Shown here piece by piece: positions 59,487-61,517 of a stretch of 64,000 bases of DNA. The notes under the pieces were generated by a model. The model did not search any database. It was not told where the DNA came from and worked only from the letters and a program-made list of their open reading frames with translations. The stretch is from Actinopolyspora lacussalsi (lineage in GTDB: Bacteria; Actinomycetota; Actinomycetes; Mycobacteriales; Pseudonocardiaceae). The position numbers were made by a program, and so were the translations under genes. How positions within the stretch are numbered: position 1 is the stretch's first letter; every line of letters begins with the position of its first letter. Where the stretch lies: the NCBI GenBank assembly GCA_030803735.1, contig JAURUC010000001.1, positions 524,501 to 588,500 of the forward strand, written 5' to 3'.

Positions 59487-61517
59487 GTGCAGGAGACTCG
59501 GCCTTGGGCAGAGCGGTCTAATACGATCGGCTACGTCCCCGGAAAGAAGACAGAACGTCGCGACACTCTGCGTCGGATATTCGAACAGTTGCCGGCTGAT
59601 TCCGGTACCTTCATCGCAATCAAGAACGGTTCTGGCAAAGAGGTCACCGTGCAGGTCGACGACCTCTGTTCGGCTCAGCTAACTCGCGGACAACTCGTTC
59701 GCCGAGAGACCGATGGAAGTTGGGAAGCGACAGAACCGGTACGGATATGGCTGTCCAACCAGGATGATGTGGAATTTGCCGTCTATATACACAACAACGT
59801 GAAGCTCTTTGGTGAGCTCCTAGAACGAATCGAGGGGTGCCACACTAAAGATAACCTCATCGCGATTGCTCAAGAGTACGGACTTAACTGGACGAGCACA
59901 GACCAGCTATACCGGCGAATTTCATGGCTCGAAGTACTTGGACTCCTCGAGCGATGGGGCATTTCCAGGTTTGTAATTACGGAAGCTGGACAGTCCTTTC
60001 TTGATAGGGTATCGCTTGCATCCCCAGAGGAAGCCAATGGAACTATGGCATCACCCAACGACAAGACTGCTACTCTGCCTGATCCAGGTGACGTTGTTTT
60101 GAACCTAATCTCGAAGAGTGCTGGCCAACGTAGAGACCTTATCGGGTATATACCCAGAGGTCGAAATGCTCGCGGTCATAATTCGACCTCTTCTTCGCAA
60201 TCCCCATTTGAGGCTATTAGAAATCTCCTGTCTCTGGTAGGGGATAGTGTCGATGTTGGCGAGTATTATAGACGATGCGCAACTCGCCTTGGAATCAAGA
60301 AGACCTCGGCAAACCAAACAATACAAACAATGCGACAATTAGGTATTATGGACATGGTGGCCTTCGGTCAGTACGGTCCAGTGCCTGATGTCGCAGAACT
60401 ACTGAATCTCGGAAACGAAGTCGACTTCATCCGTTACCTCCATTCGCGCTACTGCTTCATCGGAGAAATACTCAGTATTCTTGATGAACCTACGCCTGTT
60501 CCTGAGGTCGCGCGCATCGCAAACAAAGAGTTTAGTTTAACTCGTCTTGACAAGGGCGAGATTCGAACTCGAATGGGATTCTTATCTGGTGCCGGCCTGG
60601 TGGAGAGGATCGACTGGACTCGGTACCGCGTTTCTCCTATTGGAAAGCTCCTAGCGGCTGAGTTGGCACTCGATCTGCCAACCAATAAAGCACCAGAAGA
60701 GGAATCTTCCGAGCTCTCAGGGGATGCTACCTACACAACTCAAGAAAATTCAATTGTCTCCGATCTTCGAGAGTGTGGATACAACGGAGAGAAAAGCGAA
60801 GAATTTGAGAAGGCGGTAGCTTCCGCATTTGCCTTCCTTGGGTTTACTTCTCGGCATGTCGGAGGGGCGGGGCGCACTGATGTAGTCATCGACGCCGAAC
60901 TCCCAGCAAAGGACTCGTACCGTGCGATGATCGAAACAAAAGCGTCGTCAAGCGGTATGATCGCCGAGCATCTTGTAAAGTTTGACGCTTTGAAGGATCA
61001 TCAAAAGCGTCATCACGCGGACTTTGGAATGGTAATCGGACCAGATTTTGGCGGCAGGATCCGAGAATGGGCTGAAAACAACAGATTTGCGTTGATGACT
61101 GTCGATGATCTCGTTAATCTCCTAGTTCGTCATACTGCCCATCCGGTGCCACTGTCAGATCTACAAGTACTGTTTCAAGTGAACGGAGATGATTTAACCG
61201 ACCTTGAAGAATTGTACTCAGACTCTGAGCGATCAGTAGAGTTGCTGGCAAAAATCGTTGAGCTCCTGCACGAAGAAGCCAAAGAGGAGGATCCGCTCAT
61301 GGAAGGATACATCAGCCTTGAGAATGTGAACTATGCACTACGAAAAGAGTTGTCTCCGCGGCCTACGCAGAATGCCGTTGAAGAATGCCTCCAATTGCTT
61401 TCTCATGACCTCGTCCGGGGCGCTACGAAGAACAACAGCAAGTATAAGCTTGCGGATGCGCCAGTGAACATCATGCGGAGGTTGGCTGGCCTTGGCGTCC
61501 GCTTGGGGAAAGGTTAG
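59487..61517 (+). CDS. FokI-like restriction endonuclease-type protein with duplicated winged-helix modules
   Basis: The 676-residue protein appears to be a DNA-cutting defence enzyme. The C-terminal nuclease domain (about 436-550) contains FLGFTSRHVGGAGRTDVVID and AMIETKASSSG. Asp465, Glu483 and Lys485 fit the D...ExK active site, and the surroundings resemble the FokI cleavage domain (YGYRGKHLGGSRKPDG ... VDTKAYSGG), including the closing helix FALMTVDDLVNLL. The N-terminal 400 residues form two repeats, each with an IGYVP/IGYIP motif (14-18, 219-223) and a winged-helix-like block (92-174, 306-392), suggesting two DNA-reading modules. A third helical block is at 600-660. A GTG start at 59487 follows GGAAAGG. 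No methyltransferase is nearby. GC is clearly below the genome's. Confidence 0.75.
   Translation: MQETRPWAERSNTIGYVPGKKTERRDTLRRIFEQLPADSGTFIAIKNGSGKEVTVQVDDLCSAQLTRGQLVRRETDGSWEATEPVRIWLSNQDDVEFAVYIHNNVKLFGELLERIEGCHTKDNLIAIAQEYGLNWTSTDQLYRRISWLEVLGLLERWGISRFVITEAGQSFLDRVSLASPEEANGTMASPNDKTATLPDPGDVVLNLISKSAGQRRDLIGYIPRGRNARGHNSTSSSQSPFEAIRNLLSLVGDSVDVGEYYRRCATRLGIKKTSANQTIQTMRQLGIMDMVAFGQYGPVPDVAELLNLGNEVDFIRYLHSRYCFIGEILSILDEPTPVPEVARIANKEFSLTRLDKGEIRTRMGFLSGAGLVERIDWTRYRVSPIGKLLAAELALDLPTNKAPEEESSELSGDATYTTQENSIVSDLRECGYNGEKSEEFEKAVASAFAFLGFTSRHVGGAGRTDVVIDAELPAKDSYRAMIETKASSSGMIAEHLVKFDALKDHQKRHHADFGMVIGPDFGGRIREWAENNRFALMTVDDLVNLLVRHTAHPVPLSDLQVLFQVNGDDLTDLEELYSDSERSVELLAKIVELLHEEAKEEDPLMEGYISLENVNYALRKELSPRPTQNAVEECLQLLSHDLVRGATKNNSKYKLADAPVNIMRRLAGLGVRLGKG

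Follow-up and report, generated by a model that had tools for sequence, protein, structure and literature searches.

FokI-type enzymes are expected to require a methylase partner, and a nuclease gene in Actinopolyspora lacussalsi raises the question of how a host could be spared when no such partner is encoded nearby. The gene lies in a stretch of 64,000 nucleotides, hereafter the window, which covers positions 524501-588500 of the 5.03-Mb single-contig genome; it occupies an open reading frame (ORF) at 59487-61517 on the forward strand and encodes 676 amino acids (aa) from a GTG start. This start is backed by homologues that begin close to the same RSNTIG..PGK motif, and a Shine-Dalgarno-like stretch, GGGAAAGG, was seen by eye ahead of it at 59473-59480. 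The first-pass annotation of the locus had described a FokI-like nuclease with two tandem winged-helix modules and no methyltransferase, carried by a tiny tRNA-inserted element. That observation is confirmed and its interpretation is partly supported: the annotation was right on the anatomy, the island and the missing methylase, and properly tentative on function. The reading we favour, to which we give about an even chance, is that of a stand-alone, single-protein, horizontally mobile restriction nuclease, a member of an uncharacterised, scattered family that probably acts in defence against foreign DNA. The gene and the domains of its product are as follows.

59487..61517 (+), stand-alone FokI-like nuclease gene, 676 aa (ORF call, homologue searches)
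59544..59759 (+), putative winged-helix-like domain 1, residues 20-91, preceded by an IGYVP motif (order of helices and strands in models)
59766..60008 (+), predicted winged helix 2, residues 94-174, duplicate of winged helix 4 (hhalign, predicted structure)
60204..60401 (+), predicted winged helix 3, residues 240-305, downstream of an IGYIP motif at 219-223 (predicted structure, VIA)
60417..60662 (+), predicted winged helix 4, residues 311-392 (hhalign, predicted structure, VIA)
60723..61184 (+), PD-(D/E)XK nuclease domain, residues 413-566, with E441, D465, E483 and K485 (Pfam, profile, Foldseek/VIA, alignment)
61197..61496 (+), predicted C-terminal winged helix, residues 571-670, a domain that does not follow the FokI nuclease (predicted structure)

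The only Pfam match above cut-off in the protein was Mrr_cat at residues 437-546 (24.7 bits against a cut-off of 21); Mrr_N gave no Pfam match at E up to 1, and NCBIfam returned nothing but a far sub-threshold match. When the family profile was compared with the PDB, FokI (2fok) was the sole sequence match, with the weak value of E 0.01, in an alignment that paired the HLGGS..D and D-x-K stretches of the two proteins. Structure prediction, which had been proposed as a check on the PD-(D/E)XK core, gave a model in which the core is present, and the top matches of the predicted fold in Foldseek and VIA were FokI and N.BspD6I. In an alignment of 22 sequences (the window's protein, 20 relatives and, from locus L013, the C-terminal fragment of a frameshifted protein), E441, D465 and K485 were invariant throughout and position 483 was always E or D; the same three residues were also invariant in an 8-sequence alignment that included three Bacillota plasmid relatives. 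The D465...E483xK485 nuclease first picked out by its motif is thus borne out by the alignment, the profile match and the structural comparisons. Relatives are under purifying selection, the ratio of nonsynonymous to synonymous substitution rates (dN/dS) being 0.116 and 0.16 for two pairs of them; a third pair was saturated.

The predicted fold consists of two tandem winged-helix pairs, then the nuclease, then a fifth winged helix. An internal duplication of the N-terminal region had been proposed, and hhalign recovered it between residues 92-180 and 306-396 (P 2.8e-19) and between the halves 5-200 and 210-400 (P 4.7e-18, aligned over 65-180 and 282-398); chance likeness of the repeats is ruled out by these comparisons. 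The first domains of the two halves, when compared alone by hhalign, gave no match (5 columns), and the winged helix at residues 20-91 is suggested by the order of helices and strands in the models. Each repeat unit would comprise two domains, so that four winged-helix-like domains would lie upstream of the nuclease, and in hhalign the C-terminal domain was unrelated to the repeat. Consequently, the tandem repeat of the first-pass annotation stands but its count of two modules does not, since five winged-helix-like domains are predicted, the fifth of which (571-670) had been missed. The VIA matches for residues 1-400 sat mostly on 208-399 and barely covered the first half; the recognition part appears to be partly FokI/BspD6I-like.

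The family was delimited by searching about 5.8 billion proteins and scoring only the best 7,996 candidates; this gave 33 matches, including a version of the window's own protein that starts later. The remaining homologues were 40-71% identical to it and mostly full length, and those with a named source were actinobacterial, except for one from a Dormibacteraceae metagenome-assembled genome, and were labelled 'restriction endonuclease' or 'hypothetical'. A profile search gave back the identical set of 33. With Pfam at E up to 1, the 32 members matched HTH_45 (24 members), Mrr_cat (15), Mrr_N (13) and FokI_cleav_dom (11); Mrr_N was weak in its 13 members; in the Gordonia relative it exceeded the cut-off. 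Scanning species genomes yielded 21 loci with relatives. L002 and L075 are apparently the same locus, and L016 and L018 are fragments located on separate contigs of a single Williamsia genome. The survey of the host's taxonomic family gave matches in 10 of 297 genomes, eight of them full-type (one in two frames) and two with the nuclease domain alone, in proteins resembling GHKL fusions, and the class survey in 8 of 394, four roughly full length and the rest partial, three of those around the nuclease. On plasmids, tblastn matched 12 records: five, from Gordonia, Priestia and three from Staphylococcus, were covered over at least 80%, and seven were haloarchaeal records that matched the nuclease, with the match extending to the C-terminal part in five. 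No relative was found in IMG/VR, searched with close-relative patterns, or among 50,697 phage records, and a phage origin of the nuclease was rejected on these grounds.

We then asked where a methylase might be found. There is none near the nuclease gene in the window (hidden Markov models (HMMs), tblastn), as the first-pass annotation had stated, and methylases are rarely found near relatives. Across 30 neighbourhoods totalling 554 kb, the whole window included, HMMs for N6/N4-methylases, which do not reliably cover the D12 type, matched in L078 alone; there the methylase ORF lies 5.4 kb from a full-type relative and, by eye, adjoins another candidate nuclease gene. Two C5 queries (tblastn) matched in L082 and L083 only. 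The HMMs replaced an earlier motif scan, which had matched just L078 and L090 and missed controls such as L088, and they matched all three loci picked for PF02384 (L088, L090 and L091, one of them probably an RNA methylase by eye). Six plasmid regions that were viewed had no annotated DNA methylase in their gene tables, which are incomplete. The search for an unlinked methylase suggested by the first pass had a mixed outcome: neither PF01555 nor PF00145 was matched in the window's genome, but there are three PF02384 matches (one RNA-methylase-like by eye) and one of the D12 type, the closest lying some 360 kb away from the island.

The two C5-positive loci are of a different kind. At L082:5440-9059 and L083:5691-9243 (genomes G088 and G195) a nuclease domain of the same kind, as judged from the family profile, is part of an 815-839-residue GHKL-type ATPase protein (the ATPase domain has a Pfam match for L082), with a C5 methylase-like gene directly 3' in both. 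Here the GHKL ATPase replaces the winged-helix array and the methylase is linked; these pairs resemble MORC-like restriction-modification systems.

The nuclease is the single large gene of a 3.7-kb island at a tRNA gene, the parts of which are listed here together with an integrase remnant that lies outside it.

58976..62744, tRNA-Leu island, consisting of one 45-bp core plus 3,724 bp beyond the empty site (exact repeat, empty sites, GC)
58976..59020, outer att-like core copy, 45 bp (exact repeat)
62700..62744, inner core copy, the 3' part of tRNA-Leu(CAA) (exact repeat, ARAGORN)
62700..62775 (-), tRNA-Leu(CAA), the insertion site, which remains intact (ARAGORN)
62116..62421 (-), small island ORF, 101 aa, no Pfam match (relative in L078)
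55153..55375 (+), broken remnant, with stops, of a tRNA-Leu element integrase, outside the island (query with the G177 integrase)

The 45-bp direct repeat is exact, where none would be expected by chance, and a single core copy, that is an empty site, is present in G097, a genome of the same species, and in the congener G150. With the flanks of the window joined at one core, alignment extended over 2,465 bp at 97.4% identity to G097 and 2,446 bp at 96.7% to G150, each with 3 gap openings; these empty sites rule out the island boundaries as an artefact and uphold the tiny tRNA-inserted element of the first pass. The GC content of the island is 0.548, against 0.651 and 0.691 outside. At E 0.001 the nuclease is missing from all 9 congeners searched. 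A relative of the 101-aa ORF occurs in L078, with 56% identity over 96 residues. No integrase was seen in the island; the integrase query, from the G177 element at the same tRNA, matched the window's genome only as the outside remnant, and other kinds of integrase were not sought. Cis-mobilizable elements (CIMEs) are att-bounded and have no integrase of their own; the island is like them in being att-flanked and integrase-less, and unlike them in carrying one large cargo gene.

Several further features of this site were observed. tRNA-Leu(CAA) is an insertion hotspot of the genus: elements of about 3.6 to 20 kb with a like integrase occur in four congeners (window 62700-62775; L067:7354-12864; L068:2570-6227; L070:1666 to L071:9726; L072:4687 to L073:9862). 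The G177 integrase has 88-90%-identical copies in the elements of G188, G072 and G038 and a partial one in G165, and the G177 element encodes a T7SS-signal/WXG-type protein. The integrase remnant at 55153-55375, about 3.6 kb from the island, hints at an older, decayed element. Within the island ARAGORN called a 71-base tRNA-Ser(CGA) at 62063-62133 (+); serine tRNAs are usually longer, and the call may be spurious. Rfam at gathering thresholds found nothing in the window, tRNA-Leu included. Outside it, a DUF6247 ORF (55757-56359) overlaps a small ORF that is RelE-toxin-like by eye, a possible toxin-antitoxin pair at 55518-56359 (-).

Exact tRNA-derived direct repeats bracket the gene in 5 of the 23 loci tested.

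Window, tRNA-Leu
L011, tRNA-Pro, integrase present
L013, tRNA-Val, nuclease gene frameshifted
L021, tRNA-Arg, truncated integrase gene
L078, repeat tRNA-like by eye, no tRNA called

The survey of homologue neighbourhoods called for by the first pass thus gave tRNA-derived repeats at a minority of loci, and a methylase near a full-type relative once. Flanks were short for L006, L013, L015 and L019. L015 lies just 3' of a tRNA-Val and shows no second core copy; the contig of L019 has a 46-bp terminal overlap and is therefore probably a circle of 6,963 bp. At L078:1832-13339 (G112) a 43-bp tRNA-type repeat occurs three times, which suggests tandem elements, the first containing a distant nuclease relative, and the tRNA-Arg island of L021 holds a PemK/MazF-like ORF with a partner ORF (by eye) at 12887-13656. 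On plasmids, the Gordonia relative has TnsA-, Mu-transposase- and ATPase-type genes as neighbours, surroundings that we read as Tn7-like, and the Priestia relative has ABC-3C, AbiH and an integrase. PADLOC models matched 4 of 10 hand-picked neighbour proteins (L005, L007, L008 and L009). The Pfam and PADLOC scans of neighbours covered 138 of the 157 ORFs called there by a home-made gene caller and gave just the 25 commonest families, so absence from these scans is uninformative.

How the protein compares with known enzymes bears on how it might work. FokI (type IIS; PDB 1fok, 2fok), which has a methylase partner and cuts at a set distance from its asymmetric recognition site, shares with it a PD-(D/E)XK cleavage domain with preceding winged-helix domains, which in the window's nuclease are predicted and may serve in recognition, whereas the window's nuclease has an extra recognition half in front, is followed by the conserved winged helix 571-670 rather than being C-terminal, and has no linked or fused methylase. 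Mrr, a small, modification-dependent type IV protein, has in common with it the Mrr_cat nuclease joined to a winged helix and an apparently stand-alone existence with no methylase nearby, but the window's nuclease has five winged-helix-like domains and no Mrr_N; Mrr has a single N-terminal domain, according to part of PMC3874153. N.BspD6I, the R.BspD6I large subunit (PDB 2ewf and others), is described in sections of PMC4081073 as a nickase working with a small subunit; here there is one chain, with a duplicated recognition part and an extra C-terminal winged helix. Excerpts of PMC10853773 and PMC12839542 relate the multi-winged-helix modules of SspB, DndG and BrxA to the FokI DNA-binding module, but these are subunits of multi-protein systems without such a nuclease fusion. 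No paper on this nuclease family was recognised in the literature searched, preprint servers excluded. FokI-like multi-winged-helix modules and solitary restriction enzymes are already known as parts, and therefore it is the combination that is new to the sources we could search. The best reading is that the protein is FokI-like in its probable working and type IV-like in lifestyle, and a proven member of neither group, because FokI's linked methylase is absent and dependence on modification remains hypothetical.

We propose that the winged-helix array, that is the duplicated recognition half (the second copy resembling that of FokI and N.BspD6I) and the C-terminal winged helix, would dock on a feature of invading DNA, which could be a particular modification, a sequence of rare occurrence or an unusual structure. 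The FokI-like nuclease would then make a double-strand break, probably, like FokI, once its nuclease domain has paired with another. A methylase would be unneeded because the feature would be absent from, or hidden in, the host. The nuclease would travel as cargo of small elements, and related elements at this tRNA probably supplied the integrase that moved the integrase-less tRNA-Leu island in trans. Several observations weigh against this proposal. Pfam found no recognisable modified-base reader in the window's nuclease, PADLOC-DB 2.0.0 gave 0 families for it at E up to 1, and the full predicted model has a pTM of only 0.53. The defence neighbours were hand-picked, without a random-locus control. 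Cutting of any m5C DNA would predict carriers without m5C methylases, but PF00145 was present in 17 of 29 distinct carriers and 27 of 50 non-carriers (30 carrier handles, G599 having the same matches as G299 and being counted once; 25 non-carriers each from the family and class surveys), so generic m5C-dependent restriction is unsupported. N6-type methylases are also common in genomes with relatives (PF02384 in 22 of 26, PF01555 in 12 of 26, with no baseline). Host DNA might be spared if the target is a more narrowly defined modification or an infrequent sequence, or if the enzyme is activated by infection.

The last of these corresponds to a suicide effector, in which the winged helices hold the nuclease inactive until a phage protein or DNA structure releases it to cut host and phage DNA alike. 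No methylase would be required, some neighbours resemble abortive-infection or kinase-type defence proteins, and the sequestering of the FokI cleavage domain by its recognition domain, reported in the same sections of PMC4081073, makes an autoinhibited state plausible; but Pfam found no sensor domain beyond the winged helices in the window's protein and family members, and the recognition half resembles sequence-reading restriction enzymes, so we regard this explanation as unlikely. Rather improbable, in our judgement, is that the gene is one half of a separated type IIS-like restriction-modification system, its host being protected by an unlinked methylase or, as for PacI, by a genome without sites. 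The FokI-like architecture, the distant D12-type and PF02384 matches and the precedents of PacI and of solitary enzymes with distant methylases (parts of PMC3488263) would fit it, yet the gene moves alone among distant genomes, which would require an unlinked partner in each, and no methylase emerged as a common partner.

The gene could instead encode a nuclease for housekeeping or stress that processes aberrant DNA in repair or recombination and is carried by mobile elements with no role in defence. Mrr_cat as the sole Pfam match above cut-off would suit this reading, and Mrr of E. coli is reported to damage DNA under pressure as well, irrespective of methylation (part of PMC3874153). The patchy, mobile distribution and the absence from all nine congeners make us highly doubtful of it. 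Least credible is homing, in which the nuclease would cut the uninterrupted tRNA site and thereby spread the island, although an integrase-less island does sit at a contested tRNA-Leu site where congeners have related, larger elements. The sites of relatives include tRNA-Leu, -Pro, -Val and -Arg as well as plasmids. L014 and L021 share 85% identity, but the stretch of L014 examined has no tRNA-Arg core; L013 and L015 share just 34-36% identity, although each lies at or next to tRNA-Val. This explanation is disfavoured.

A mobile restriction nuclease is thus the preferred reading, and a broader form of it is possible, although we hold it tentatively: that of a self-sufficient FokI-type family, discriminating self from non-self within one chain by two fused recognition halves and a C-terminal winged helix, with no methylase, and spread on plasmids and on one-gene tRNA islands mobilised by the integrases of other elements, from Actinomycetota to Bacillota, with shorter haloarchaeal relatives made up of the nuclease and C-terminal domain. 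The occurrence of the empty site in a genome of the same species makes the island a clean natural experiment. Enzymes of this sort are useful tools and may act as barriers to the transformation of actinomycetes. A conserved mobile family without a methylase implies another route by which the host is spared, and perhaps a new means of reading DNA that is modified, rare or unusual.
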